From IMG/VR virus record IMGVR_UViG_3300033571_001054, positions 1-21,339 of that record: a stretch of DNA of 21,339 nucleotides; one strand, 5' to 3'. Each line of letters begins with the position of its first letter. Position 1 is the first letter of the stretch. This DNA is from a virus. The notes beneath the pieces were generated by a model, which saw only the letters and a program-made list of their open reading frames with translations, had not been told where the DNA came from and ran no database searches. Below, one piece after another: positions 660 to 19,145 of this stretch. Position numbers and translations under genes: made by a program.

Positions 660-2229
660 ATGTTGAAAATCTGGATCTATAATAGTCTTTTATAGACGTA
701 TCTGAGTTTCTGACATTAACCTTCATTAAGTTATTTTGTGTAGATTTAGTAATAGTTGTTGGTGCATTAACGATGTTAGTAGCAGGTGTTGCAAATGGAT
801 ACATTGCGCCTTCTTCATTTTCTGCAGATTTTTCATATATGACTTCAGCAGCTGTGGCTGGAGGGGTTACTACGTTTTCAGGTTTTACTTCAATAGCTGG
901 AGCCATAATGGGCTCTGAGGTTTTCATTGGGGTTTCTGTTACAGTTGGTGTTTCAACTGTAGATGATTGTTCTGGTGCAGCAAGAGCTGCGAATGGTTTC
1001 CATGGACCAAACTTCTTGCCAAATATACTTAATGGTCCAATGCTAATCTTAGTTAATATATCTTGTAACCATTTCATTGGTGCAAAGAACATATCTATGA
1101 ACTTAGAATAAAGATCTTTAAACGAGAATGAGTCTAAGAATTCAGATGCTTTGTCAAAGCCAAGCTTATCTAATATCCATGAACTAATGTCTTTGATTAA
1201 ATCTAAGAATCCACCTAACGTAGCATCAAATAAACCTTTTAATCCTCCCTTAATCGCTCCAACTAGTCCATCTTTCTTAAATCCTGAAGTTATACCTTTG
1301 ATAGTATCAATGACTGCAAGGACTATTAAGATAGGCTCAAAGATATACTTGACTAATGATGATGCGGTTTTTATTAACCCGCTAAAAATTTTTAAGGAAC
1401 TAGCCATAGTTTTAAATGTTCCAATAATTCCATTAACAGGACCGCTAATTAATTCTGTGATGACTATAAAGGCTTTTTGGAATGGAGCTATGAATTCTTT
1501 TATAGCTTTACCTATCTGACTAAATATTGTTATTTCTTTCTCAAATCTAAGGAACTTCTTTATCTTTTCAAAGCTTGATGACAAGAACTTGCCAATCTTA
1601 CTCTCTGAAAACATCTCGGATATCTTATTGAATGCCATTCCTATTCTATTTTTAAGTTTCGTGCCAAGTTGTTCTAAAGATTTACCTAAACCTTCAAACT
1701 TACCTTTAAATGCATTGAGTAAGTTACCAGGTAAAAGCTTACGTAAGAAGTTGATATAACCTTGGACTAAACCTAATAAAGTGCCAAGAGCAGCACCTAA
1801 AGCAGCTAACAATAATGGTAATGCATTCTTATCGTCAGCTTTTTTCTTTACCATTAAACCATCACGTATTTCTTCGAGCAATCGCAATTCTTTGCTCTTA
1901 TAATCTTTATCTTCTATGTCTTGTTGACTTAAATCGTTCTTAGATTGAGGTGGGACTTGTTTCCTAGAACCCTTTATGAATCCTGCAAGAGTATTAGTAC
2001 TATTTTCGATAGCCTTAGTCATCTTAATTATATTTTTATTAAGATTAACGTTTAGAGACGTATTGATCTTTTTAAGTTCTGATAAGATATTATTTTCAGA
2101 CGATATATCGCTACCAGTAGGCATGTTACCTATCTGCGATTTTACAGTAGAGCTTAAACCTGAAAGTTTCTCAGATTGCTGTTTCTGTAAGATATACTCT
2201 AATGATAGTGATGGATCTTTCTTAGCCAT
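658..2229 (-). CDS. Tape-measure-like tail protein (gp29-position)
   Basis: A 523-residue protein with no motif that names it directly. What is seen: a polar, helix-prone N-terminal third (1-135); a strongly hydrophobic helix at about 137-162; repeated amphipathic helices rich in Lys, Phe, Ile and Gly to about 400, including a second hydrophobic region at about 290-357; a Pro/Thr/Glu linker (about 415-465); and a short basic C-terminus. Helical length with embedded hydrophobic segments is typical of tape-measure proteins, and T4 gp29 is of similar size (about 590 residues). Context supports this: its ATG overlaps by one base (TAATG) the end of a probable frameshifted tail-assembly chaperone, the usual neighbour of a tape measure in long-tailed phages. 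Assignment to tail-length control is inference; another internal or structural virion protein is possible. Confidence 0.6.
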   Translation of the reverse strand: MAKKDPSLSLEYILQKQQSEKLSGLSSTVKSQIGNMPTGSDISSENNILSELKKINTSLNVNLNKNIIKMTKAIENSTNTLAGFIKGSRKQVPPQSKNDLSQQDIEDKDYKSKELRLLEEIRDGLMVKKKADDKNALPLLLAALGAALGTLLGLVQGYINFLRKLLPGNLLNAFKGKFEGLGKSLEQLGTKLKNRIGMAFNKISEMFSESKIGKFLSSSFEKIKKFLRFEKEITIFSQIGKAIKEFIAPFQKAFIVITELISGPVNGIIGTFKTMASSLKIFSGLIKTASSLVKYIFEPILIVLAVIDTIKGITSGFKKDGLVGAIKGGLKGLFDATLGGFLDLIKDISSWILDKLGFDKASEFLDSFSFKDLYSKFIDMFFAPMKWLQDILTKISIGPLSIFGKKFGPWKPFAALAAPEQSSTVETPTVTETPMKTSEPIMAPAIEVKPENVVTPPATAAEVIYEKSAENEEGAMYPFATPATNIVNAPTTITKSTQNNLMKVNVRNSDTSIKDYYRSRFST

Positions 2230-2411
2230 TATTGGTTATTTTCCTGTCTTTGTTTTTCTTCTTCTAAATACTTAATTAACATAGCAACGTAGATATCTCT
2301 CTCAAATGGTATCATATTCTCTAAGTCTTCTAAACTATAATGATGATACTGCATCAAAGCAAAATTCATTTTATAGAAGTTATGCAAAGACTCATGAGAG
2401 AGATTAACTAA
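2229..2411 (-). CDS. Probable -1 frameshift extension of the gp26-like chaperone (60 codons)
   Basis: The stretch between the gp26-like stop and the tape-measure start is not empty. In the -1 frame relative to gp26 it is open for 60 codons from TTA (2411-2409) to TAA (2231-2229), and the TAA overlaps the tape-measure ATG by one base. The encoded segment is well formed: it contains QYHHYSLEDLENMIPFERDI near its middle, then a helical, acidic/basic tail (YLEEEKQRQENNQ). An internal ATG (M15 of the segment) exists but has no Shine-Dalgarno sequence, and the frame stays open upstream through the slippery run. The simplest reading is a gp26 fusion of about 297 residues made by -1 slippage, analogous to lambda gpG/gpGT. 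It occupies the T4 gp51 position but is far shorter than T4 gp51. Independent translation from the internal ATG is the alternative. Confidence 0.75.
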   Translation of the reverse strand, partial: LVNLSHESLHNFYKMNFALMQYHHYSLEDLENMIPFERDIYVAMLIKYLEEEKQRQENNQ

Positions 2412-3121
2412 AAAAAACTTTGCAGACCCTCTAATACTTTGTGATGCTCTTTGTTACACACTGGACACTTATAGTCAATACCGTGTCTTAACTTAGGCAT
2501 CGTCTCAAAGAACTTCTGAACTTTTGCAAACTGTTCAGATGATAAGTTATTAAGGAATTGTAATAATTCTTCTTTACTTTGTTCTTTAGCATGATATACT
2601 TGAGAAGAATCATAGATAGCATCAATACACTCGATCACTATACTGAACACTGCATCAAGGTTTGCACTATCTAAGTTCTCTAACTTCTTAATAACGTCAA
2701 TGGTTGGGTACTTCATTAACACACCTACGTCATCAAATAACTCTATGTTATTTGTATGCGCTTGATCCTTTTCTACTTGGATCTTAGTTAAATCTATTTC
2801 TACTTTAGCTACTGCTTTTTCATCTTCACATGTATCACATCTAATCATTAATTCAGCGATCTCACCTACAGATTTTGCTCTGATCTGTGTAAATACGTAT
2901 TCAATGTCAAATGTAGCAAACGTATCTACATCTATATTATCTTTAAGGCACGACTTAATCACACCTTTAAGAGATTCAACCATTACTTTAGGATCTTCTG
3001 ACTGATGCGCTAAGAGTAATGCTTTCTCCTCTTTAATTAAAAACGGTCTATACTTAACTTCTTTACCAGTTGATGGTAACACCAATGTATAGGTTGGTGT
3101 ATTGTTCATAGGTAATGCCAT
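2408..3121 (-). CDS. 26: gp26-like baseplate hub assembly protein / tail assembly chaperone
   Basis: A 237-residue protein matching the T4 gp26 family (T4_baseplate family, PF12322, from memory): start MALPMNNTPTYTLVLPSTGK, then the conserved YRPFLIKEEKALL segment (24-36). Two CxxC pairs (C95/C98 in CDTC and C219/C222 in CPVC) look like a split zinc-binding site. T4 gp26 is about 208 residues and is needed for hub assembly without being a clear part of the finished virion. The start is well supported: AAAGGAG lies 6 nt upstream (3134-3128), inside the last codons of gp16. The gene ends in the T8 slippery run, and its position directly before a tape-measure-like gene fits the short product of a G/GT-type chaperone pair. 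The family call is strong; the chaperone role is inferred from context. Confidence 0.85.
   Translation of the reverse strand: MALPMNNTPTYTLVLPSTGKEVKYRPFLIKEEKALLLAHQSEDPKVMVESLKGVIKSCLKDNIDVDTFATFDIEYVFTQIRAKSVGEIAELMIRCDTCEDEKAVAKVEIDLTKIQVEKDQAHTNNIELFDDVGVLMKYPTIDVIKKLENLDSANLDAVFSIVIECIDAIYDSSQVYHAKEQSKEELLQFLNNLSSEQFAKVQKFFETMPKLRHGIDYKCPVCNKEHHKVLEGLQSFF
2411..2417 (-). promoter_or_regulatory. Slippery heptamer T TTT TTT for -1 frameshifting
   Basis: On the minus strand the gp26-like gene ends CAA AGT TTT TTT TAG, a run of eight T (2417-2410). The heptamer T TTT TTT allows both tRNAs to re-pair after a -1 slip, and the next codon then becomes TTA in the open 60-codon frame. A Shine-Dalgarno-like GAGGG (2431-2427) lies 9 nt upstream, close to the spacing of the stimulatory element in E. 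coli dnaX. I did not find a clear downstream stem by eye. A run of eight identical bases could also act by polymerase slippage. Confidence 0.72.
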
Positions 3122-3122
3122 A

Positions 3123-3554
3123 CTATTCTCCTTTATGTATATCCTTAAGCATCTTACTCAACTCACTTGTAGATCCCACGAATATCGCGTTGTTGTTCGT
3201 CACTTGTTTATTTGGATGTCCTTCTTGTTGCTTAGGTGCATCCAACTTTTGTTTACGTTCACTCAATGCTAATAGCTGCTCGTTAGTGTCAGCTAGTTGT
3301 TTCATCAAGTTTCCTACCACCTCAAAGGCTCTTGGATGCTCAGACTGTTTGGCTATCTCTAGCGCATGGTATAATGCATCTTGTCCTTGATTCAATAACT
3401 TATGTAGGTTATTACGAGCTGAATCATAATCGTAATCTACATTCTCTTCAACTTTATTAGAAGCAGGAACTATCTCGTTCCCGCCACTAACTACTTCACC
3501 CGGTTTAAGAGGCTCTACGTTAAAAACCTTTGACAAATTATCATCAGACTTCAT
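3123..3554 (-). CDS. 16: Small terminase subunit gp16
   Basis: A 143-residue protein, close in size to T4 gp16 (164 residues), which recognises DNA and stimulates the gp17 packaging motor. Matches to the T4 protein are visible along the chain: an acidic DYDYDSARNNLHKLL segment (40-54) corresponding to the T4 DYGVVRRNMH region; the central helix pair with SEHPRAFEVVGNLMKQLADT (71-90), comparable to T4 DSPRHMEVFATLMGQM; and a C-terminal NNNAIFVGSTSEL (120-132) comparable to NATVFMGSPTEL. The helical centre is the coiled-coil oligomerisation region in the family. AAGG lies about 8 nt before the ATG. The gene is not next to gp17 as in T4; its neighbours are an EF-hand membrane protein upstream and gp26 downstream. 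Confidence 0.9.
   Translation of the reverse strand: MKSDDNLSKVFNVEPLKPGEVVSGGNEIVPASNKVEENVDYDYDSARNNLHKLLNQGQDALYHALEIAKQSEHPRAFEVVGNLMKQLADTNEQLLALSERKQKLDAPKQQEGHPNKQVTNNNAIFVGSTSELSKMLKDIHKGE
3128..3134 (-). promoter_or_regulatory. Ribosome binding site for the gp26-like gene
   Basis: AAAGGAG on the minus strand, 6 nt before the ATG at 3121-3119. It lies within the last codons of gp16 (stop TAG at 3125-3123), so translation of the two genes is probably coupled. Confidence 0.8.
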
Positions 3555-3568
3555 AACAATACCTTATA

Positions 3569-4087
3569 TTAAGTTATCTTTCTTTTTGGTGTTGCTCTTG
3601 CTGGGGTATCTGCTGCAACTTCTGGCTCACTGTAATCTTCTACACTTGGTGGAGCTGGAGGTGTTGGAGCTGCCGGAGCTGGACTAGGAGCTGTTGGTCT
3701 TGGCGGCACCGGCATTGGCATTTGCTGCGGAGCCGCATCAGCTTTTTTTGATGATGAGTATGCATTCGCACCAAAGAAAGCAGCTACTAAAGCTGAGATA
3801 GCCACAAAGTATGTAGGAGCAATATTGCCAATAATAGTTGCTGCATCATCCACGTCTAACCATGAAGCGATAACGATAGTTGCTGGATAGAGTAACATAC
3901 CCCATAGAGCGAACCATGTCATTTTACGCATTGCGTCGCGTTGAGCGTCTTGATCTTCAAGCTCTTTACGCTTGAACTCTAGATACATGGCTAGTTCTTG
4001 GCTACTAACATAGCCGTCACCATTTGTATCTGCTTCTTGTAAATGTTGGTAAGCGTTATCACTTACACCTTGTTTTCTATTTTCCAT
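3569..4087 (-). CDS. EF-hand membrane protein with proline-rich tail
   Basis: A 172-residue protein of unknown role. Residues 20-31 form a canonical EF-hand calcium loop (DTNGDGYVSSQE): Asp at positions 1 and 5, Asn at 3, Gly at 6, Ser at 9 and Glu at 12. It is flanked by helices. A charged helix (38-56) then leads to two predicted membrane segments at about 57-76 (WFALWGMLLYPATIVIASWL) and 87-107. The C-terminal 65 residues are rich in Pro and Ala with a basic end (PKRK). By charge, both ends are probably cytoplasmic. A small two-helix membrane protein in a phage could be holin-like or act at the membrane during assembly, but nothing proves this. AAGGA 7 nt before the ATG supports the start. 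It lies between gp54-like and gp16 in the same operon. The C-terminal coding region looks richer in G+C than its neighbours because of Pro/Ala codons. Confidence 0.8.
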   Translation of the reverse strand: MENRKQGVSDNAYQHLQEADTNGDGYVSSQELAMYLEFKRKELEDQDAQRDAMRKMTWFALWGMLLYPATIVIASWLDVDDAATIIGNIAPTYFVAISALVAAFFGANAYSSSKKADAAPQQMPMPVPPRPTAPSPAPAAPTPPAPPSVEDYSEPEVAADTPARATPKRKIT

Positions 4088-7533: not shown

Positions 7534-8828
7534 TGGCAGCTAATAATGAAGTAATACGATTTGCTGGAGATGTCAGCATTGACAATATTGAAATCATCTC
7601 CTCTAATGGCTTTGGCCAAGAAGTAACAAATCAAGTGGTTGCGATTGAGATTTATGAAGATCTATTCTCCCCATTTATATCCGGCGTAGTAGCTCTAAAA
7701 GATTCTTTAGACTTAGCAAACCTGTTTCCGCTTGTAGGTGAAGAATACATCAATATCAAACTCCATACGCCATCGTTTGAAAATAAAGATAAGATTATTA
7801 ATGATCAATTCTATATCTTTAAGATGACTAATCGTGAGATGGCGGGTGATCGTAGTGTAATCTATGAACTACACTTCATGACAAGAGAAGCTGTAGTAGA
7901 TTTAAATAAAAAAGTTAGTAAATGCTATCAAGGCAAATGTTCAGATATTGCAAAGTCAATCATAGCAGATACAAAAGATGGGTTGGAATCAAAGAAGACT
8001 ATTATCGTTGAAGACACTCCAAATGGAATTAAATTTATATCTAACTACTGGCCTCCAGTCCAATCATTAAACTATGCAGCAGAGACTGCTGCTAATCAAA
8101 ACGGAAATGCTTCTTATATATTCTTTGAAAACCGTAAGGGTTTAAACTTTGTATCACTAGAGTCTTTATATCAAGGAGGCATCGTACAAGAATTTGTATA
8201 TGATGCATATATGAGAGAGTTTACTCCAGATGGTAGATCGTTTCGTAGCGTAGAGGAAGAATATAAACGTATTATAACTATTAGTATACCTAAAGTGTAT
8301 GATTATATAGAACGCGCACGATCTGGTATGTTTGCTTCTAAGATGATTAACTATGACTTAACAACCAAAAAGTATGTAGTTAAAAACTTTGATATGTTAG
8401 AAGATTTTCCAAAAGAGAAACATTTAAACAAATTCTCTTCAGTGTCTAATAAAGCTATTCGCAGAACAAACGCAATGGTGTTTACTTATCCTAAGTACTT
8501 TGGAAATTTTAATAACTTTGGAGACGTCACCAACGCTAGAACAATACAAAAGCGAATGTCATTATTACAGCAAGCAGAGACCACAAAGATAGAAATAGTA
8601 GTTCCAGGTAGAACAGATTATACTGTTGGTCAAAAGATATATCTAAGATTAAATAAATTTAATCCTATAGAAACTTCAGATTCTAACCAAGATACTTTAG
8701 ACAATATGTTCTCTGGAAATTATTTAATAAGTGCTATAAATCATTCTATAGATAGAGAAAAACACCAATGCCATATTGAATTAATTAAAGATACATTCAT
8801 AGTTGATTTGAATGGAGGTGGGAAGTAA
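7533..8828 (+). CDS. 27: gp27-like baseplate hub protein
   Basis: A 431-residue protein resembling gp27 (391 residues in T4), the trimeric torus under the gp5 spike, related to the N-terminal part of VgrG. Visible features are an N-terminal beta-rich domain (residues 1-130) with NQVVAIEIYEDLFSPFISG, and a middle helical segment, QSLNYAAETAANQNGNASYI (about 177-196), followed by FFENRKGLNFVSLESLY. That alternation (helix bringing in a Phe-Glu-Asn strand) is typical of gp27/VgrG domain exchange. The C-terminal strand (NYLISAINHSIDREKHQCHI) resembles the closing strand of such domains. Position between gp53 and gp5 matches the role, since gp5 sits on gp27. It overlaps both neighbours as TAATG. 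Fold-level assignment; sequence identity to T4 is probably low. Confidence 0.75.
   Translation: MAANNEVIRFAGDVSIDNIEIISSNGFGQEVTNQVVAIEIYEDLFSPFISGVVALKDSLDLANLFPLVGEEYINIKLHTPSFENKDKIINDQFYIFKMTNREMAGDRSVIYELHFMTREAVVDLNKKVSKCYQGKCSDIAKSIIADTKDGLESKKTIIVEDTPNGIKFISNYWPPVQSLNYAAETAANQNGNASYIFFENRKGLNFVSLESLYQGGIVQEFVYDAYMREFTPDGRSFRSVEEEYKRIITISIPKVYDYIERARSGMFASKMINYDLTTKKYVVKNFDMLEDFPKEKHLNKFSSVSNKAIRRTNAMVFTYPKYFGNFNNFGDVTNARTIQKRMSLLQQAETTKIEIVVPGRTDYTVGQKIYLRLNKFNPIETSDSNQDTLDNMFSGNYLISAINHSIDREKHQCHIELIKDTFIVDLNGGGK
8814..8820 (+). promoter_or_regulatory. Ribosome binding site for gp5
   Basis: GGAGGTG, 7 nt before the gp5 ATG at 8828 and within the last codons of the gp27-like gene. 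It is the strongest Shine-Dalgarno sequence noticed in the plus operon. Confidence 0.8.
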
Positions 8829-11377
8829 TGAAATTATATACTGGAGTAGTTGAAAATAGACAAGACCCTCTAAAGCTTGGAAGATGTCAAGTTAGAGTAG
8901 TCGGTTTACATAACCATGATAAGAGTCAGTTAAAGACTGAAGACTTACCGTGGGCATACCCTATGCAGCCAATAACTTCTGCTGGCATATCAGGCATAGG
9001 TCATTCACCATTAGGACCAGTTGAGGGAACCTGGGTCGTCATCATGTTTAGAGACGATGACGAACAACAACCCATCATCTTAGGATCTATCGGAGGTATC
9101 CCACAATCTCAAAGCACTATAGACTATGACAACGAAGAAGTAATACTTAAACAAGACGGATATCTTTCATCATCTGGAGAACAAACACTTACTGGTGAAA
9201 ATGGTACTACTACCGTAAATTCTAGCAATGAACGAGTAGAAGAAGACATTGGATTAAATCCAGCTAGTAGTTATACCCCATCTTCTGATGCAACCAACCT
9301 TATTAAACAATATGAAGGATTAAGACTAACAGCTTATCAAGATACTGGTGGTGTATGGACTATTGGTTATGGCACGACTTCTATCAATGGAGTGCCGGTT
9401 TATGAAGGTCAAACTATCACAGAAGCACAAGCTGATGAGTATTTAACTACGCATTTAACAACTTCTGTATCACCTATCGTAAACTCTAAGACTAAAGCTC
9501 CCATCACACAATCTATGTATGATGCCTTATGTTGCTTTACGTATAATTTAGGTTCAGGCAACTTTAGCAAATCAATTCTACTAAAAGAATTAAACGCAGG
9601 CAAGTACCTTGATGCCGCAACTATGTTTAGTGATTGGATAAAAGATGATGGAGTGGTACTTCCTGGATTAGTTAGAAGACGAGGATCCGAGAAAGATTTA
9701 TTCTTAAAAGATGGTGTACCAAATATCTCTGGAGAACTTAGTCCGCCAATATCTGAAACACCTGCAGTAGATTCTGCAGCAGATAGTTCAGGTTTAAAAA
9801 CATCTTCAAGCCAATCTACATCTCTTGGGTTTAAAGATCCTAAAGGTAAGTATCCGCTTTATCTAAATGAGCCAGACACTAATAAACTAGCAAGACACGA
9901 AGATATTAAGAAGACTATCGTTCGTAAGAAAGAAATAGCAAGAGAGAAGGGCGTCATCTCTGCATTTAATATATCATGGGACCAATCACCAATCCCATAC
10001 AATTCAGTGTATCCATATAATCATGTATTCATGTCAGAGTCTGGTCATGTCATGGAATTTGATGATACTCCAAACTCTGAGCGCGTGCATATCTATCATA
10101 AGACTGGCACTTATACAGAGATCGACTCTAACGGTACAGAAGTCAAACGTATAGTAGGCGATAAGTATGAGATACTTGAACGCAACGGACACCTATACGT
10201 TAAAGGATCTGCTGACGTCACCATCGATGGTAACCATAATGTTAAGATCAACAATGCACTAAACGTTGAGGTGTCTGGTAAGACAAAAATTAATGTTTAT
10301 AATGACGTTGAGATGAACGTGTCTGGTAAGATGGACTTATCAGTAAAAGAAGATCTAAACATTCGCGCTAATAACATCAACATGGAAGCTGTTGGTAATA
10401 TCAACCTTGCCTCTGCTTCTATAAGAGAACAAGCAAATGATATCAACGTTACTGCTAGCACATATAAAGAAACAGTTGGAACATCAAGCTATCGTCATAC
10501 CGGTACTAAGTACACATATCTTGGTGGAGATACCTACACTGTAGCTATATCAGGTAAGACTGATTATAGTTGTCCAACAAGTAGATCTGGCGGATCATCA
10601 TGCCCAAGTATTGATAGTGCTACTGGCGCAAGTACGACTGGACTCTCATCTCCTGGAGAAAAACAAACTCCAGAGATGCCAACATTTGCTGAGTTAGTAG
10701 TGTTAACTCGCGGCGTTGAAGCTGCAGCGCATTATGAAACGCCTGAGGAAGGTGATCCATCAGAGTATATAGACAAACGAATCTCAGACGGTACATTAGA
10801 TCCTGATGATAAAGACTACGGGACTTCTCAAGGCACTGCTTCTGCAGCGGCAAATAACGTTACACCTTTACCACAGAGCTGTAACATCATCAACTCTATG
10901 GAGAAGTTTACTCCAGACTTAATACTATCACCACACTTTAGTCTTGGTGGTTTAACTAAGGGCGGTTCAAGGATGCCTGTAAACCAACAGGGTTTAACCG
11001 CACAAGAGATCGTATGTAACCTTAAAGGTCTTGCTGAGAATTGTCTTGAGCCTATCATTAACTTGTATCCAGGTATGGTGATAACTTCAGGATACAGGAG
11101 ACCTGGCGATGTACCTAAGTCATCTGCTACATCACAACACTACTTAGGTCAAGCAGCAGACTTCATCATTCCAGGGTTTAACAGAGAAAGACACTATGAA
11201 GCCATACAAGCTATCCAACAGATCATACCATATGACCAATTGATATTAGAGTATTCTGGTAAGACTACGGTATGGATCCATGTGTCGTTTAAGTATACTG
11301 CTAATAGGCTTATGGCTTTTACCATGAGGGATCATGCTAAAGTTGGAGATACTGGCCAGTTTACACTAATAGGATAA
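8828..11377 (+). CDS. 5: gp5 baseplate hub spike with lysozyme and an added M15-type peptidase domain
   Basis: An 849-residue central spike; T4 gp5 has 575. Domains in order: OB-fold (about 1-95, with LGRCQVRVVGLHNHD); GH24 T4-type lysozyme (about 156-297) with Glu163 in QYEG, Asp172 in AYQD and Thr178 in WTIGYG, whose spacings equal those of T4 lysozyme Glu11/Asp20/Thr26; a gp5/VgrG core with SESGHVMEFDDTPNSERV; and a triple-stranded beta-helix with VxGx-type repeats (about 455-570). At the C-terminus (about 690-849) is an extra D,D/L,D-peptidase-like M15 domain: SGYRR at 754, SQHYLGQAAD (769-778) giving His771 and Asp778, and WIHVSF giving His818, the three zinc ligands. The protein would cut both glycan and peptide bonds of peptidoglycan during entry. 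It overlaps gp27-like as TAATG. Confidence 0.92.
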   Translation: MKLYTGVVENRQDPLKLGRCQVRVVGLHNHDKSQLKTEDLPWAYPMQPITSAGISGIGHSPLGPVEGTWVVIMFRDDDEQQPIILGSIGGIPQSQSTIDYDNEEVILKQDGYLSSSGEQTLTGENGTTTVNSSNERVEEDIGLNPASSYTPSSDATNLIKQYEGLRLTAYQDTGGVWTIGYGTTSINGVPVYEGQTITEAQADEYLTTHLTTSVSPIVNSKTKAPITQSMYDALCCFTYNLGSGNFSKSILLKELNAGKYLDAATMFSDWIKDDGVVLPGLVRRRGSEKDLFLKDGVPNISGELSPPISETPAVDSAADSSGLKTSSSQSTSLGFKDPKGKYPLYLNEPDTNKLARHEDIKKTIVRKKEIAREKGVISAFNISWDQSPIPYNSVYPYNHVFMSESGHVMEFDDTPNSERVHIYHKTGTYTEIDSNGTEVKRIVGDKYEILERNGHLYVKGSADVTIDGNHNVKINNALNVEVSGKTKINVYNDVEMNVSGKMDLSVKEDLNIRANNINMEAVGNINLASASIREQANDINVTASTYKETVGTSSYRHTGTKYTYLGGDTYTVAISGKTDYSCPTSRSGGSSCPSIDSATGASTTGLSSPGEKQTPEMPTFAELVVLTRGVEAAAHYETPEEGDPSEYIDKRISDGTLDPDDKDYGTSQGTASAAANNVTPLPQSCNIINSMEKFTPDLILSPHFSLGGLTKGGSRMPVNQQGLTAQEIVCNLKGLAENCLEPIINLYPGMVITSGYRRPGDVPKSSATSQHYLGQAADFIIPGFNRERHYEAIQAIQQIIPYDQLILEYSGKTTVWIHVSFKYTANRLMAFTMRDHAKVGDTGQFTLIG

Positions 11378-11796: not shown

Positions 11797-13640
11797 TGGC
11801 AAATAAAAACATTACTACTTCTGAGCTAGACTTTGATGCAATTAAATCCAATTTAAAAACTTTCTTACAAGGTCAGGCAGCTTTTGCTGATTACGACTTT
11901 GAGGGAGCCGGACTTTCCGTACTATTGGATATACTTGCATACAATACCCACTACAACGCTCTATATACAAACTTAGCTGTCAATGAATCCTTTTTGGATT
12001 CCGCCAGCAAACGATCAAGCGTCGTTTCAAGAGCTAAAGAAATTGGGTACGTGCCTTACTCATCATCTGCTGCCACAGCTACCGAGAATATAGTAGTATC
12101 TGGTACTACTTCATCTCCAGCAACATTGACTTTACCGGCATATAGTGCATTCAACACAACTATAGAAGGCACACAGTTTACATTTTATAATACAGAGAGC
12201 ATAGTAACTACTCGTGTTGGTTCAACTTATACTTTTCAAGGAGTACAAATCAAAGAAGGAACTCCGTTATCATTTAAATATACAGTTGCAGATGGTGTAC
12301 GATACACTATCCCAAATCAAAATGTAGATATGTCAACACTAGCTGTAAGGGTGCAAGATAACTCTGCTTCTTCTGTATTTACAACATTTGTAAATCAAGA
12401 AGATTTATTAAACTTGGATGGAGATTCTAGAGTATACTTTATCAAAGAAATCGAAGGCCAACTATATGAATTAGAGTTTGGTAACGGAGTCATTGGTAAG
12501 GCTTTAGAAAATGGTAACATAGTTAATCTAACATACTTAGTAACAAATGAAGAAGCTGGTAATGGAGCTCGTGTGTTTGCATACAATGGTTCAACACTAT
12601 TAGGTGGGTCAGTAGCAGTTACTACTACCACTCCAGCAGTAGGAGGATCTCCTGCAGAGACTATCGAGTCTATAAGGTATAATGCTCCTAGATCATACTC
12701 GTCACAAAATAGAGCTGTTACAGTTGAAGACTATAGAGCTATAATATTTAGATTATACCCAGAAGCCCAAACTATCAATGTTTGGGGCGGAGAAGACAAT
12801 GACCCTCCAATCTATGGTAAAGTATTTTTATCTATCAAACCTACCACTACTGACGTATTGACTCAAAATCAAAAAGATTATATTATAGATTCTATCTTAA
12901 AACAAAAGAACGTTGTATCTATCACTCCTGAGATAGTAGATCCAGAATATATTAGTCTACAAGTAACATGTTCGGCTTACTATAACCCGCGTTTAACAGT
13001 TAGATCTGAGAATACACTTAAAGAGTTAGTTATCCAAACCATAAAAGACTATAACACTGATAACTTAAATTCATTTACTGGAGTATTTAGACATTCAAAC
13101 CTTAGTGCATTGATCGATAATACAGAAGACGCTATAGTTAGTAACATCACTACAATCAAACTGCATCGTGAAATAAATGTACAGTACAATACAAATGCAA
13201 ATTATACGATTAACTTAGCAAACCCAATCTATGGATCTGGAGTGCCAGAAGAATCTATTACATCTCATGGATTCTATATTGCTGGAAATGATAATATAAT
13301 GTATATTGAAGATCTACCTACAGATCATTTTACTGGTCAATTAAGATTATTTTACTTTAGTAATACAGGGGAAAAAGTATACATAAGAACATTTGGTTCT
13401 GTAGATTATCCTAATGGAATTATAAGACTAACAGAGCTTGAGATTACTGGTATTGATTTAACACAAAGCCCAGTATTAGAATTAATAATTAAACCACAAT
13501 CAAACGATGTGGTATCAATTAGAAATCAATTAGTTACCATACCTGACGAAAACATCATCGTAAACGTAATACTAGATAAAGTTTCAGTAGGTGATCCAGG
13601 TGGCGGCACAAACTACATATTTACTTCAAGTAGGAACTAA
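11796..13640 (+). CDS. 6: gp6 baseplate wedge protein
   Basis: A 614-residue protein (T4 gp6 has 660), a baseplate J-like component. gp6 dimers form the inner ring that ties the wedges together. The N-terminus is very characteristic: ELDFDAIKSNLKTFL (11-25), then FEGAGLSVLLDILAYNTHYN (37-56) and ALYTNLAVNESFLDSASKRS, followed by AKEIGYVPYSS. The middle has a J-type domain with LYELEFGNGVIGKALENGN (about 220-238) and SSQNRAVTVEDYRAIIFRLYP (about 304-324), a signature shared with baseplate J proteins. Position directly after gp25 matches T4-like and P2-like order. Confidence 0.93.
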   Translation: MANKNITTSELDFDAIKSNLKTFLQGQAAFADYDFEGAGLSVLLDILAYNTHYNALYTNLAVNESFLDSASKRSSVVSRAKEIGYVPYSSSAATATENIVVSGTTSSPATLTLPAYSAFNTTIEGTQFTFYNTESIVTTRVGSTYTFQGVQIKEGTPLSFKYTVADGVRYTIPNQNVDMSTLAVRVQDNSASSVFTTFVNQEDLLNLDGDSRVYFIKEIEGQLYELEFGNGVIGKALENGNIVNLTYLVTNEEAGNGARVFAYNGSTLLGGSVAVTTTTPAVGGSPAETIESIRYNAPRSYSSQNRAVTVEDYRAIIFRLYPEAQTINVWGGEDNDPPIYGKVFLSIKPTTTDVLTQNQKDYIIDSILKQKNVVSITPEIVDPEYISLQVTCSAYYNPRLTVRSENTLKELVIQTIKDYNTDNLNSFTGVFRHSNLSALIDNTEDAIVSNITTIKLHREINVQYNTNANYTINLANPIYGSGVPEESITSHGFYIAGNDNIMYIEDLPTDHFTGQLRLFYFSNTGEKVYIRTFGSVDYPNGIIRLTELEITGIDLTQSPVLELIIKPQSNDVVSIRNQLVTIPDENIIVNVILDKVSVGDPGGGTNYIFTSSRN

Positions 13641-15472
13641 TGTCAGTTAACTTAAAGTCTGTAGTATCTAAACAGCTCCCAGAATTTGTACGGGCTGACT
13701 ACCCACTTTTCGTTGAATTCATAGAAGCATACTATGAGTTCTTAAATGCTAAAACATTTACGGTAGGTGCAACTAGTTTTCAGGGAGGAAACCAACAAAG
13801 AAACCTAACTGAGCTAAGAGATTTAGATGATACTATTGATGAGTTTATCCAATACTTTAAGAATGAGCTTGATATATTTGGTGATAACTATGAATTTATA
13901 GATAGAGCATTCTTTTTAAGAAAAGCTAAGCAGATATTTACTGCAAAGGGAACAGAAGCTTCATATAAGTTTTTATTCAAGTTATTATATAATAAAGATG
14001 CCGAGATCCACTATCCATGGGATCAAGTACTTAAAGCATCCGATGGCAAATGGCAACAAGAGATGTCTATATTTGTTGACATATCAGCAGGAGACGCTTT
14101 TAATTTAGTTGGAAATAGAATCAACTTAAATGGTACTAACCTTTCCATCAAAGTATTTGTGACACGAGTAGAATATTACAGAGATAATATCTATCAGCTA
14201 TACATCGATAAAAGTTATTATGGCACGATTCAAACTGGATATACCATCGATGATGATGGTGTGGTAGGTACAATCATCCCTACTACCGTAGGCTATGAAA
14301 TACTTAATAAAGGTATTGGATTTAAAGTTGGAACGTTCTTTGAAACAGCTACAATTTCAAATGGTCAAGTAATTACACAAAAATTAAAAGTTACAAAAGT
14401 TGACTCAAACGGAGGCATACTTGCATTAACCACAATTCAATTTGGTGCGGGTTATGCACTAGACTTCTTTTCAACTAAGAGTGTAACAGACATCATTTAT
14501 GATGCAAGCTTAACAATTGATAAGAATAGTACTAGACAGTTCTCAATCCCCAATGATACATTTATTGAAAATTATGTGGATTTTGGTTACTTAATTTCAC
14601 CAATATACTCCGAAATAGATTATTCAGATAATACATACGCCGGGGTATTATTAAATCAATGGTATCAACAAACTGAGGCTGGAGCTAATGAAATAGTAAA
14701 CTTTGCCATCATTAAGTTTACTATTGGAGCTGTTGCTAAGTATCAGGGACAGTTTATCAACAACGACGGGTTCTTAGATGATGATATCTATCTTCAAGAT
14801 AGTAGGTATTACCAAAAGTTTTCATATGTTATTACTATCAACCAAAGCTTAGATAAGTACAAATCATTAATTAAATCATACCTACATCCTACTGGTACAG
14901 CATTATTCTCTAATTATCAGATCCAAGCTACTTTTGCTCCTACAGTATCTGCTACGTTTGAACTAGGAGAATGGCAATCTGGTGCTTCTACAACTCAGAT
15001 AAATAGATCTATTAGAGATATGTTTGTATATCCAGTGGATTCTGGTGGAGTAATCAGAAGAGAGCCATATGATATTGACTACTTTGAGTTAGAAGGATTC
15101 TATAACCCACCTACCGCATATAGATTCTATGGTGATGCTAGAAACGTTTTAAGTTCAACAGTTAGCATGGACGATTCAGGATCAGCTTCGGTTGATATAG
15201 CATTTAATGCTGCCACAGCAGTCGATGATAGTCTTGAGACTATTACATATGCAAATCATGGATTCTCTACACAAGACGCTGTAGTATATAGAACAAATGG
15301 TGGCACAGCTATTGGGGGCTTATCTAATCTAAATACATATTATGTATACAAAGTAGACAATGATACAATAAAATTAGCTACATCCGCAGCTAATGCATTA
15401 GGCGGTTTAACAATTAATTTAACAGATGGTGTAGGATCTAATCATACGCTAACAAAAACAAGGAATTTTTAA
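13640..15472 (+). CDS. gp7-position baseplate wedge protein with C-terminal mobile module
   Basis: A 610-residue protein. The N-terminal 150 residues (QLPEFVRADYPLFVEFIEAY at 13-32; KAKQIFTAKGTEASYKFLFK near 95-114; HYPWDQVLKASDGKWQQ) resemble a family I recall after gp6 in marine T4-like phages, where T4 has gp7 (1032 residues). I do not see enough to claim orthology with gp7. The last ~89 residues (522-610) are a Gly/Asn/Thr-rich module with HGFSTQDAVVY, YYVYKVDNDTIKLATS and NLTDGVGSNHTL, also found in the two following genes. The stop codon overlaps the Shine-Dalgarno sequence of the next gene. A wedge role is inferred from position between gp6 and gp8. Confidence 0.7.
   Translation: MSVNLKSVVSKQLPEFVRADYPLFVEFIEAYYEFLNAKTFTVGATSFQGGNQQRNLTELRDLDDTIDEFIQYFKNELDIFGDNYEFIDRAFFLRKAKQIFTAKGTEASYKFLFKLLYNKDAEIHYPWDQVLKASDGKWQQEMSIFVDISAGDAFNLVGNRINLNGTNLSIKVFVTRVEYYRDNIYQLYIDKSYYGTIQTGYTIDDDGVVGTIIPTTVGYEILNKGIGFKVGTFFETATISNGQVITQKLKVTKVDSNGGILALTTIQFGAGYALDFFSTKSVTDIIYDASLTIDKNSTRQFSIPNDTFIENYVDFGYLISPIYSEIDYSDNTYAGVLLNQWYQQTEAGANEIVNFAIIKFTIGAVAKYQGQFINNDGFLDDDIYLQDSRYYQKFSYVITINQSLDKYKSLIKSYLHPTGTALFSNYQIQATFAPTVSATFELGEWQSGASTTQINRSIRDMFVYPVDSGGVIRREPYDIDYFELEGFYNPPTAYRFYGDARNVLSSTVSMDDSGSASVDIAFNAATAVDDSLETITYANHGFSTQDAVVYRTNGGTAIGGLSNLNTYYVYKVDNDTIKLATSAANALGGLTINLTDGVGSNHTLTKTRNF
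15203..15469 (+). repeat. Mobile 'HGF-GD / YYVIKVDxDTIKLA' module, copy 1
   Basis: Residues 522-610 of the gp7-position protein, forming its extreme C-terminus. Shared landmarks with copies 2 and 3 are an (E/D)TI(T/P/S)Y start, HGF followed by T..D.V.Y, a NGG or DGG turn, YY(V/I), DxxKLA(S/T)SAANA and G.G..H.LT. The 18 nt at 15419-15436 (ttaacagatggtgtagga) recur exactly at 18123-18140 in copy 3. Confidence 0.8.
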
Positions 15473-15482: not shown

Positions 15483-16187
15483 ATGTTACAATCGAACGTA
15501 AAACTTACAGGTAAATTAGTCATCAAGAAGTTTGATGCAGTTAAAAACTTAGTGTATGAAACAGAAGTAAACAATTTGGTAGTTACTTCAGGAAAACAAT
15601 TTCTAGCTTCTAGAATAATTGCAAACACTGCAAGCGTTATGGGTTATATGGCTATTGGTGATGATGCATCATCAGCGTCAGCATCTCAGACAACATTAGT
15701 TAATGAGTTAGCCCGTGTTGCTGTAGATTCTGCAACTGCATCTGGTGTCAATGCTACATTTGTAGCAACATTTCCAGCGGGTACCGGTACTGGAGATATC
15801 GTTGAAGCTTCTATCACTAACGCTGCAGCAAGTGCAGTTATATCTTTTGACGGAGACGATGTTGATGATGGTGGTGATACTATCCCATATGTTGGTCATG
15901 GATTCGATACTGGTGACTTGGTTACTTATACTGATGGTGGTAACACAGTGATAACTAACTTAACTGACGGAGCGCAATATTACATCATTAAAGTTAATGA
16001 TGACGTAGTTAAGCTTGCGTCATCTGCAGCTAATGCGATTGATGGCATTGCAATAAATATTACAGGCACTTCAGGTGCAGGACATAAACTAACAGCTGGT
16101 ACAATGTTATGCAGAACAACATTCCCAATAATTACTAAATCTTCATCTGAAACTATAGCTATTCAATGGGTGATCACTGTAGGATAA
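15483..16187 (+). CDS. Small baseplate/tail structural protein carrying the mobile module
   Basis: A 234-residue protein, probably structural. The N-terminal part (LTGKLVIKKFDAVKNLVYET, then NNLVVTSGKQFLASRI) and GYMAIGDDAS (about 56-65) resemble small tail/baseplate proteins common in phages, where a TG-x-L-x-I start is followed by a V-T-x-x-G-K-x-x-L-A-x-x-L helix and an x-x-x-G-x-G segment. This chain is split by the module at about 121-204 and resumes with MLCRTTFPIITKSSSETIAI, the usual closing strands. So the module appears inserted within an otherwise continuous domain. It has a strong ribosome binding site. Function is inferred from position between two wedge genes; no T4 orthologue is recognised. 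Confidence 0.65.
   Translation: MLQSNVKLTGKLVIKKFDAVKNLVYETEVNNLVVTSGKQFLASRIIANTASVMGYMAIGDDASSASASQTTLVNELARVAVDSATASGVNATFVATFPAGTGTGDIVEASITNAAASAVISFDGDDVDDGGDTIPYVGHGFDTGDLVTYTDGGNTVITNLTDGAQYYIIKVNDDVVKLASSAANAIDGIAINITGTSGAGHKLTAGTMLCRTTFPIITKSSSETIAIQWVITVG
15843..16094 (+). repeat. Mobile module, copy 2 (internal insertion)
   Basis: Residues 121-204 of the 234-aa protein: DTIPYVGHGFDTGDLVTY, YYIIKVNDDVVKLASSAANA and GAGHKLT correspond in order to copy 1. DNA words are also shared with copy 1, for example tcatggattc and gcagctaatgc, which hints at exchange rather than only distant homology. Confidence 0.78.
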
Positions 16188-16193
16188 TAAAAT

Positions 16194-19145
16194 ATGGCAA
16201 CATCGTACGAAATATTCACGTCTAGGTTCAAAAAAACTATCATTGATGCAGTATATCAAGAGATCGTCTCTAAAACCGCTACGTACTATCATTGGTATGG
16301 TAAAGAAAACTTGTGGACAGACTTCTTAAGTCCGTTTATTCCATCAAGTCCATCTGATATACCAGGAGAGCCTTCATATAACTTTAGATATGAGTTACAT
16401 GTTAGACGCGATATATTAACTGCTAAAAAGATTAAACCTTCTGATGTGTCTTATGTAATACGCCGCATAGATTGGGAATTTAATACTACCTATGACATGT
16501 ATGATGATGCTATAGAATATGTTTCAGGTGTAGGATATGGACCTGCACAATCAGGAGCTACTAAATTAGAAGATGCAAACTTCTATGTATTAACATCCCA
16601 ATATAACGTATATAAATGTATTTGGAATAATAATGATTCTCCTTCTACAGTCATGCCAACTGGTACGACTCATCAAATCTTTACTACAGCTGATGGATAT
16701 AGATGGAAATTTATGTATGCTCTTCCAATATCATTAAGAAACAAATTTTTATCTACGGCATATATGCCAGTAACTACGTCGCTTAAAGCTCCATACTATT
16801 CAAACGGGGCCATTAATTCTGTAACCATCGATAGCGGCGGGGCTGGATATAATATAGCAACTACTACTGCTGAAATTATTGGAGATGGTTATAAAGAAGA
16901 AAACCCATATATCATAGATTCTATTACTATAGATGATGCAGGTGATTCATATTCTACTACTCCAACTATTACAATTGCAGAACCATATATTGCTATTGCT
17001 TGGACAGCTAGTGCTAATATCCTTGTTGGCACTTATATTAAACACTATAACTCTGCTACACAACGTACAAACTATTACTATGTTATCTCTGGCACACTAT
17101 TGGGAACATCTGGTCCAACACATACTTCAGGAACTGTAACTAATGGCAGTGCACAGTTGCAGTATGTTGCGTCCCAAGCACTAGCTTCATGCACATTAAC
17201 TGGAAATGCAATAACTACAGTCACCCTTGACTATGAAGGATATGGATATACAACCACACCTGAGGTAACCACTTCTGCGGGTATTACTAAAGACGACGAT
17301 TATGCTATAGCTAGTGCATACAATACCGGAGACATATTAAAGTCAGGATTAAAATACTATGAGGTTACTACGGGTGGAACTACTAGTACAACAGCTCCTA
17401 CTCATACTTCAGGTTCTGCAGCTAATGGCACAACAGTATTGGCATATTTGGGAAGAGATGCAACGCTATCCGCAGATACCACCAAGACTGAAGCAGAGAT
17501 ATCTTTAGAGATTAGCCCAGGAACTGATGCTGTATTTCAAGTAGTTATAACTTCTGCTGGTACAAAATACGCTGAAGCTCCAACTGTAACATTCTCGAAT
17601 CCAGAAACTTTAGGAGGCACTACTGCAACAGGTACAGCTGCAATAGCATCAGGAGGAGTGTTATACATTACTATAACAGATCCAGGTAATGGTTATGTTG
17701 CTATTCCTACAGCAACTATATCTAATCCACAAATCACATTTAATGGTGCTACTGATTTAAATGATTCGACAGAAACAATTTCATACTCTACTCACAGACT
17801 AATTACTGGTGATACTGTAACATACTCTAATGGCGGTGGTACATCGATTGGAGGTTTAACTTCAGGTAACACTACAGCTGGTTCATTTATTACAAGCGCT
17901 GTTTATATTATCAGAAGTTTAGGTAATACTACACAGTTACAATGGAATACTGCAGCTGGTACAAGCGGAGTTACGTATGCTGTTGGTGATATATTCACAG
18001 CCGCTGCCGCCGGAACGGGAACAGGTGCTGCACAAAGGGTATACTACATTATTAGAACTGATGCCAATAGCTTTAAACTCGCTACGACGTCTGCAAATGC
18101 TTCAGCAGGAACTGCTATCAACTTAACAGATGGTGTAGGAGATGCTCATACATTAACATCAACAGATGAAGCTGCACTAGGAACTGTCGTGCTCGGTACT
18201 GGAGGAGAGATAGTTGGGTATAGCATAGACAATTCAGGTATCGGATATACTAATGCAAATGTTATCATAACTGACTCATCTGGTTCTGGTTCAGGGGCTC
18301 AACTATCAGTAGATTTCGATGTTGGTAATGTTAACACATTACAATCGAACGTAGAACTATTAGCTGTGCCAGGATCTATTGAAGCTATTAAAGTAGAGGA
18401 AGGTGGTACAGGGTATGGTGCAGCTGTTGTAGAAATCTTAGGAGACGGTCAAGGAGCAACAGCTGAAGCTGTGGTAACTGGAGGTAAAGTTGTAGCTGTT
18501 AACATGTTGACTACTGGATCTGGATATACTTGGACCGATGTAGTTGTGACCGGAGGATTGGGAACTGGATGTCTAGCAAGAGCAATCATGTCTCCGTTAG
18601 GAGGTCATGGATTCAATGCTGTTGAAGAATTATATGCAAGATCACTACAATTCTACACCGCAATGTCCAAAGACTTAAATCAAGGTTTAGAAATAAAAAA
18701 TGATTATCGTAAGGCTGGATTGATTAGAAACCTCAAGAAGTTTGGTACTAACCAAAGATTTACAGAAGAGATTGGATCTGGTTGTGTATTAATCACTGGT
18801 CAGTTTGATAAATTAAAACTAGAATACGATATGTTGTTACTTAAACAAGAAGCAACAGGACCCAACTATAAAAAATATCGTATAGTAGAATTTAATGATA
18901 CTCAGATATTATTATCTGTTTTTAATAACTTTAGCATTAACATAGGTGACATTATCGTAACAGACCCAACAAATGGAGGATTAAACTTAAACCCAACAGT
19001 ACCAGTGTCTACTATTACTGTGGAGAGTGTTTCAGAAAGAACTATTGATCAGTTCTCCGGAGACTTCATATTTTTCAGTGTCAGAGAACCATATGCTCCT
19101 TCAGATGATCAAATTATTACAATAAAAACCACTTTAACCTTATAA
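16194..19145 (+). CDS. 8: gp8-like baseplate wedge protein with large modular insertion
   Basis: A 983-residue protein; T4 gp8 has only 334. Residues 1 to about 205 look like gp8: SYEIFTSRFKKTI, an internal VIRRIDWEFNTTYDMYDD, NVYKCIWNNN and DGYRWKFMYALP, which parallel T4 IPRRDW, VYRCL and DGYVWEYLFEIP. Residues about 800-983 (SPLGGHGFNAVEELYARSLQ onwards) finish the wedge fold. The ~595 residues between them are inserted: beta-helix-like GxGYxxxPxVTI repeats; two copies of a W/Y...GTYIK-type module ending in PTHTSG (about 268-327 and 370-422); and a mobile module (516-657) that is itself interrupted by another module (561-615). There is no clear ribosome binding site beyond AGGA about 10 nt upstream. 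In T4, gp8 binds gp7 and gp10 at the wedge rim. Confidence 0.8.
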   Translation: MATSYEIFTSRFKKTIIDAVYQEIVSKTATYYHWYGKENLWTDFLSPFIPSSPSDIPGEPSYNFRYELHVRRDILTAKKIKPSDVSYVIRRIDWEFNTTYDMYDDAIEYVSGVGYGPAQSGATKLEDANFYVLTSQYNVYKCIWNNNDSPSTVMPTGTTHQIFTTADGYRWKFMYALPISLRNKFLSTAYMPVTTSLKAPYYSNGAINSVTIDSGGAGYNIATTTAEIIGDGYKEENPYIIDSITIDDAGDSYSTTPTITIAEPYIAIAWTASANILVGTYIKHYNSATQRTNYYYVISGTLLGTSGPTHTSGTVTNGSAQLQYVASQALASCTLTGNAITTVTLDYEGYGYTTTPEVTTSAGITKDDDYAIASAYNTGDILKSGLKYYEVTTGGTTSTTAPTHTSGSAANGTTVLAYLGRDATLSADTTKTEAEISLEISPGTDAVFQVVITSAGTKYAEAPTVTFSNPETLGGTTATGTAAIASGGVLYITITDPGNGYVAIPTATISNPQITFNGATDLNDSTETISYSTHRLITGDTVTYSNGGGTSIGGLTSGNTTAGSFITSAVYIIRSLGNTTQLQWNTAAGTSGVTYAVGDIFTAAAAGTGTGAAQRVYYIIRTDANSFKLATTSANASAGTAINLTDGVGDAHTLTSTDEAALGTVVLGTGGEIVGYSIDNSGIGYTNANVIITDSSGSGSGAQLSVDFDVGNVNTLQSNVELLAVPGSIEAIKVEEGGTGYGAAVVEILGDGQGATAEAVVTGGKVVAVNMLTTGSGYTWTDVVVTGGLGTGCLARAIMSPLGGHGFNAVEELYARSLQFYTAMSKDLNQGLEIKNDYRKAGLIRNLKKFGTNQRFTEEIGSGCVLITGQFDKLKLEYDMLLLKQEATGPNYKKYRIVEFNDTQILLSVFNNFSINIGDIIVTDPTNGGLNLNPTVPVSTITVESVSERTIDQFSGDFIFFSVREPYAPSDDQIITIKTTLTL
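16995..17174 (+). repeat. 'GTYIK...PTHTSG' module, copy A, in the gp8-like gene
   Basis: Residues about 268-327: an aromatic start (IAWTASANILVGTYIK), a double-Tyr strand (YYYVISGT), then GPTHTSGTVTNGS and LQYVAS. It matches copy B at the same relative landmarks (GDILK, YYEVTTGGT, APTHTSGSAANGT, LAYLG). Such modules occur in many phage tail and baseplate proteins; binding of surface sugars is a common suggestion but not shown. Confidence 0.65.
17301..17459 (+). repeat. 'GTYIK...PTHTSG' module, copy B, in the gp8-like gene
   Basis: Residues about 370-422 of the gp8-like protein: YNTGDILKSGLKYYEVTTGG, then TTAPTHTSGSAANG and VLAYLG. It is the second tandem copy, separated from copy A by a GYGYTTTPEVTT beta-type repeat. 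Confidence 0.65.
17739..18164 (+). repeat. Mobile module, copy 3, split by an inserted module
   Basis: Residues 516-657 of the gp8-like protein. The first half (STETISYSTHRLITGDTVTY, then SNGGGTSIGGL) and second half (YYIIRTDANSFKLATTSANA, then TAINLTDGVGDAHTLT) match copies 1 and 2, but 55 residues separate them. The His-Gly-Phe of the other copies is His-Arg-Leu here. The exact 18-nt match to copy 1 lies at 18123-18140. Confidence 0.8.
17874..18038 (+). repeat. Nested module (AGSF...VGDIFTAAAAGTGTG) inside copy 3
   Basis: Residues about 561-615, placed between SGNT and VYYII of the mobile module. It has a pattern I recall as common in phage structural proteins: AGSF..., YII.S.G.T, a W/F-containing turn, VGDIFTA and a Gly/Thr/Ala end (AGTGTGAA). 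The boundaries are my estimate from comparison with the uninterrupted copies. Confidence 0.68.

Follow-up and report, generated by a model that had tools for sequence, protein, structure and literature searches.

Comparative evidence for a programmed −1 ribosomal frameshift joining a gp26-like tail-assembly chaperone to a gp51-type extension in an uncultivated virus

Introduction

Tail-assembly chaperones produced in two forms, by means of a −1 frameshift shortly before the short frame ends and with the tape-measure gene directly following, are known from the G/GT system of phage lambda and from the phages analysed by Xu, Hendrix & Duda (2004). The chaperones (TAC) of the Vandenendeviridae and Andersonviridae, exemplified by phage Adele (PMC12846349), have a polyT slip motif (GTTTTT), an open −1 frame that is routinely listed as a hypothetical gene of its own and, again, the tape-measure protein (TMP) next. 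T4-like tail-assembly chaperones were identified by Vladimirov, Gautam & Davidson (Virology 2022, 566:9-15), as recorded in the citing passages of two later papers: the PRFect paper (PMC10885494) cites that work for the occurrence of separate short and long genes in some T4-like phages, and the Adele paper (PMC12846349) cites it for polyT stretches as known −1 signals in T4-like TAC-N genes. On the wording of these passages, a frameshifted T4-like chaperone had already been described in kind by 2022. The abstract of that study reportedly states that several groups of T4-like phages have conserved the frameshift. A further point of reference is dnaX, where an SD-like element precedes a homopolymeric heptamer by some 10 nt.

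Gene 51 of T4 has been described as encoding an essential protein with no assigned function that is absent from the particle (PMC3004832), and the gp51 of cyanophages has been reported (Sullivan et al., 2010) to lack the first ~200 residues and to reach just ~20% of the T4 gp51 length.

Here we describe a locus in the window, by which we mean the whole 21,339-nt stretch of viral DNA that was analysed. It resembles the lambda system in having a two-product chaperone, a predicted −1 frameshift late in the short frame and the tape measure next, but its slip sequence is unlike that of lambda, T TTT TTT being preceded by an SD-like element and abutted by a stop codon, and the likeness drawn here is one of arrangement. 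The comparison with the Adele-type chaperones is likewise one of arrangement, and the phage families are different. With dnaX-type frameshifts the locus has in common an internal SD-like element 5′ of a homopolymeric heptamer; unlike dnaX, no downstream stem-loop was detected here and a stop codon follows the heptamer directly. Genes 26 and 51 of T4 provide, as is predicted for the window, a gp26-like short form and a long form consisting of gp26 plus an extension, although T4 does so from two divergent paralogous genes with no frameshift, whereas the window has one gene and a slip site. The window virus is uncultivated and apparently absent from the set of the 2022 study. With the general idea already in print in 2022, what the present analysis contributes is confirmation in an uncultivated clade, with evidence from synonymous sites and from the SD-like element.

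Results and Discussion

Layout of the locus

The gp26-like frame of the window ends, by direct reading of the minus strand, in ...GGT CTG CAA AGT TTT TTT TAG, and the features around this end are listed in Table 1. A first-pass annotation of this DNA, made from the sequence alone, had proposed that a −1 frameshift fuses the gp26-like protein to a 60-residue extension. Its description of the site, namely eight T at the end of the gene, a T TTT TTT slip heptamer, GAGGG 9 nt upstream and a −1 frame open for exactly 60 codons with its TAA over the tape-measure ATG, was borne out in every detail; the DNA that would be non-coding in the absence of a frameshift, put there at about 177 bases, was counted as 178 nt. 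The T8 run is the sole run of at least eight T on the minus strand of the window. The predicted frameshift product has 297 aa, with the junction peptide ...SFFLVNLSHESL.... Matches of the next gene to TMP families, together with the TAA/ATG overlap, place the chaperone locus directly 5′ of the tape-measure gene. No second gp26-like place was found in the 21 kb record, which is itself a genome fragment. One base upstream of the chaperone gene there is a terminase small subunit-like gene (phrog_445, 2e-37).

Table 1. Coordinates of the chaperone locus, of other genes mentioned in the text and of junctions in other phages (positions refer to the window unless a locus number, L, is given)
Feature	Position	Strand	Remarks
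gp26-like ORF, short form (TAC-N)	3121-2408	minus	237 aa, C-terminal S-F-F-stop
Shine-Dalgarno-like GAGGG	2431-2427	minus	exactly 9 nt 5′ of heptamer
T8 run	2417-2410	minus	spans heptamer and first base of TAG
Slippery heptamer T TTT TTT	2417-2411	minus	P-site TTT, A-site TTT
Zero-frame stop TAG	2410-2408	minus	directly 3′ of heptamer
−1 frame extension (TAC-C), 60 codons	2411-2232	minus	begins TTA GTT AAT; C-terminal part of predicted 297-aa fusion
Extension stop TAA	2231-2229	minus	one A common to tape-measure ATG (2229)
Tape-measure-like protein, 523 aa	2229-658	minus	hits phrog_58 (tail length tape measure, 3.1e-12) as well as further TMP families
Terminase small subunit-like gene	3123-3554	minus	
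172-aa protein	3569-4087	minus	
gp5-like hub protein	8828-11377	plus	
Consecutive tail/baseplate proteins	13640-15472, 15483-16187, 16194-19145	plus	
Vibrio phage phiKT1024, gp26-family gene pair	L099 1811-3153		
Citrobacter phage Moon, gp27/gp28	L100 3141-4779		
Ackermannviridae-type loci	L087 3703-3900, L113 2260-2450, L114 2206-2400, L115-L133 junctions, L092, L134, L135, L137		

Conservation of the slip site and the SD-like element

The first-pass annotation had named the junctions of related phages and their synonymous sites as the places where its proposal could be checked. A tblastn-confirmed scan of IMG/VR yielded 80 relatives at 53-86% identity, and in all 80 the aligned gene end reads NNT TTT TT(T/C) followed by TAA, TAG or TGA, so that the T-run and the T TTT TT(T/C) heptamer are kept throughout, as is a recognisable −1 extension wherever the sequence is long enough. 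Synonymous variation was scored in 47 representatives with less than 95% nucleotide identity (mean pairwise identity 66%), where the AGT/AAT/GCT codon and the first TTT showed zero third-position variation and ranked 1 and 2 of the 188 scored columns, against a mean of 0.47. Among 33 well-separated loci the Ser-type codon always ends in T (P ~3e-9) and the first Phe codon is always TTT (P ~3e-7), both values being calculated under the genes' own codon usage and optimistic because of phylogenetic dependence. The conserved Glu codon that forms part of GAGGG is GAG in 38 of 43 cases as against a GAG usage of 29% (P ~1e-15 before phylogenetic correction), the SD-like site is among the strongest 5% of gp26 positions in 31 of 33 representatives, and its spacing from the heptamer is 8-10 nt, mostly 9 nt. 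The slip-site observation is correct, far beyond chance, and the comparison of the relatives indicates that the GAGGG SD-like element is selectively maintained. A search of the relatives for a conserved downstream stimulatory RNA structure found none (alifold −0.9 kcal, mean z −0.8).

The heptamer, as T TTT TT(C/T/G), was found in 14 of the phage isolates examined: the cyanophages syn9, P-HM1, S-IOM18, S-H9-1 and Sf-FR1, Methylophilales phage Melnitz-2, Sinorhizobium phiM12, Ochrobactrum ORM_20, Rhizobium RHph_N34 (where it is T TTT TTG), Aeromonas 65, Vibrio phi-pp2, Stenotrophomonas Bhz51, Acinetobacter SH-Ab 15599 and Delftia PhiW-14. Homopolymer runs are prone to errors, and a sequencing or assembly error, or a pseudogene, might hide a true gene of one continuous frame; the first-pass annotation itself had named a simple sequence error as a finding that would count against it. 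This explanation is refuted, its residual probability being negligible, by the 80 contigs from many metagenomes and the more than a dozen isolate genomes that share the same frame relation and stop.

Long homopolymers can also cause transcriptional slippage, and the eight consecutive T of the window might lead RNA polymerase to add or drop a U and so give rise to a mixed mRNA population. However, the heptamer is T TTT TTC, with only six or seven T, at loci L046, L049, L058, L063 and L066 and in most isolates, and at these short-run loci the −1 arrangement persists, as does the phase-specific XXXYYYZ form. As T TTT TTC is too short for polymerase slippage but still allows tRNA-Phe to re-pair (the X XXY YYZ rule), slippage would be ribosomal and not transcriptional, and we regard an origin at the level of transcription as extremely unlikely.

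The extension and its relationship to T4 gp51

In each of the 43 representatives whose downstream DNA is long enough, the first 55 codons of the −1 frame contain 0 stops, as against means of 6.8 and 6.0 stops in the other two frames. Nucleotide diversity in the downstream segment, taken by −1 codon position, is 0.22/0.08/0.47 and resembles that of the upstream gene in its own frame; this periodicity starts immediately after the slip site, and in nearly all loci only a few bases separate the end of the extension from the ATG of the following gene. These patterns argue strongly that the −1 frame is under coding selection. The extension of the window gave a match to phrog_634, 'baseplate hub assembly catalyst', at 7e-25 and a second one, at 1.9e-7, to the C-terminus of phrog_150, and in cyanophage annotations it appears as 'gp51, baseplate hub assembly catalyst'.

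The gp26-like ORF of the window matches PF12322 (T4_baseplate) at 3.2e-65, with 220 bits against a curated cut-off of 24.5, and phrog_150 at 3.1e-71. T4 gp51 (249 aa) matches PF12322 over residues 1-201 (7.7e-55), the same model that is matched by T4 gp26, and phrog_150 along its whole length (1e-87). When the conceptual fusion was aligned with T4-type gp51 by hhalign, the alignment was continuous through the frameshift junction (probability 99.4, E 4.7e-21), with ...SFFLVNLSHESLHNFYKMNFALMQYHHYSLEDLENMIPFER... of the fusion set against T4-type gp51. AlphaFold2 (AF2) models were made of window gp26 (pLDDT 86.8) and of T4-type gp51 (pLDDT 83.8), the long form being represented by a natural in-frame T4-like gp51 from IMG loci; the secondary-structure elements occur in the same order in both, gp51 having three C-terminal helices in addition, and a structure search with gp51 returned gp26 proteins. 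T4 gp51 thus consists of a gp26-like domain to which the same extension is joined in frame, and the paralogous, divergently placed T4 genes 26 and 51 are therefore the counterparts of the short and the long form, respectively. The earlier suggestion that gp26 and the segment in the position of gp51 make up one chaperone pair was right and can be sharpened, in that T4 gp51 has this segment as its C-terminal domain. No solved homologue was found by sequence, and a Foldseek search of the PDB gave no significant hit, the HK97 tail assembly chaperone 2OB9 being the hit of highest probability (0.77, TM 0.52 on the target) and, at E ~1, a suggestive match.

In the isolates, the extension is usually annotated as a separate gene of 27-53 aa (in syn9, P-HM1, phiM12, phi-pp2 and others), and a small cyanophage-type 'gp51' gene might indeed be expressed by termination-reinitiation, for which TAATG is present at the junction in some relatives, or from a start codon of its own. 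However, no conserved start codon for the extension was found among the representatives (codon 2 is GTT, ATT or ATG), and about one-fifth of loci have no start-like codon within its first 12 codons. Coding periodicity and conserved residues begin at the slip site, 5′ of any AUG, and GAGGG is 15-18 nt from any such start, probably too far for initiation. A separate gene would also leave the synonymous conservation of the slip codons without explanation, and is at odds with the in-frame fusion found in T4 gp51. We consider it very unlikely that the extension is a gene in its own right, and put at about 93%, on the comparative sequence evidence, the probability that this is a gene for a tail-assembly chaperone in which ribosomes undergo a programmed −1 frameshift. 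The same evidence supports the placing of such a frameshifted chaperone pair before the tape measure, as originally proposed.

Other arrangements in the gp26/gp51 family

Phages Vi01, PP35, Magnus and D509, along with most other Ackermannviridae-type phages examined (Kuttervirus, Taipeivirus, Limestonevirus, Serratia KNP4 and several Vibrio phages), are without the heptamer, though the extension follows in the −1 frame. Their junctions have ATTTTC, GTTTTC, CTTTTC/CTTTTT or GCTTTC in place of the heptamer, with TAATG in some and TAATT or TGATC in others, and the extension is phrog_9633 and, weakly, phrog_634. No relatives of the Vibrio D509 gp26 were found in IMG/VR. The first-pass annotation had pointed to homologues with the segment as a separate gene and no slippery run as evidence that would count against a frameshift; such cases are confined to distant groups, namely the T4 clade, with its full in-frame gp51, and most of the Ackermannviridae examined. 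In Vibrio phage phiKT1024, a short gp26-family gene (216 aa) lies next to a long one that includes the extension (229 aa), a tandem version of T4 26/51. In Citrobacter phage Moon, an annotated 'GT-like fusion' joins gp27 and gp28; this join may be misplaced, as the TAC pair there appears to be gp26/gp51.

It is conceivable, and we suggest it only tentatively, that three modes coexist in the gp26/gp51 family: frameshifting at T TTT TTN, as in the window and the majority of groups; a duplicated pair of genes, one short and one long (the T4 clade and the phiKT1024 tandem); and a −1-phased extension with no heptamer in most Ackermannviridae (e.g. ATT TTC ATT TAA), to be explained by reinitiation or by an unrecognised slip at a single codon. 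This last mode may be undescribed.

Proposed mechanism and significance

Our working model, in which slippage and its efficiency are inferred from the features described above, is that the majority of ribosomes would terminate at TAG to give the 237-residue gp26-like short form (TAC-N), while a minority would pause owing to 16S rRNA pairing with GAGGG and to the adjoining stop codon. The paused ribosomes would move back one base on T TTT TTT and append the 60-residue helical domain, yielding a long form of 297 residues (TAC-NC). If lambda G/GT is a guide, both forms may act as chaperones that coat the tape measure and aid assembly of the tail tube around it, with the C-terminal domain presumably contacting the tape measure or the tube. 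Phages of the T4 clade would obtain these two products from a pair of separate paralogues, gene 26 for the short form and gene 51 for the long one.

Cyanophage 'gp51' would then appear without the first ~200 residues because the extension is a frameshift fusion to gp26. The small 'gp51' annotated in hundreds of genomes of cyanophages and marine phages very probably represents the C-terminal domain of a gp26 extended by frameshifting and not a gene of its own, and the hub 'catalyst' gp51 of T4, so far unexplained, is linked to a simple and testable chaperone role.

Other genes in the window

Three further observations concern genes outside the chaperone locus (Table 1). The gp5-like hub protein has an internal phage lysozyme domain (2.2e-39) and a weak Peptidase_M15_3 match near its C-terminus (0.0016), and is possibly a spike with two wall-cutting domains. 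The 172-aa protein has a single EF-hand-like motif, followed by two apparent membrane-spanning stretches and a Pro/Ala-rich tail. The three consecutive tail/baseplate proteins contain a similar module, recognised by eye as HGFxTGDxVxYxxGG...YYxxKVxxDxxKLAxSAANAxxGxxINxT, which represents a duplicated domain.
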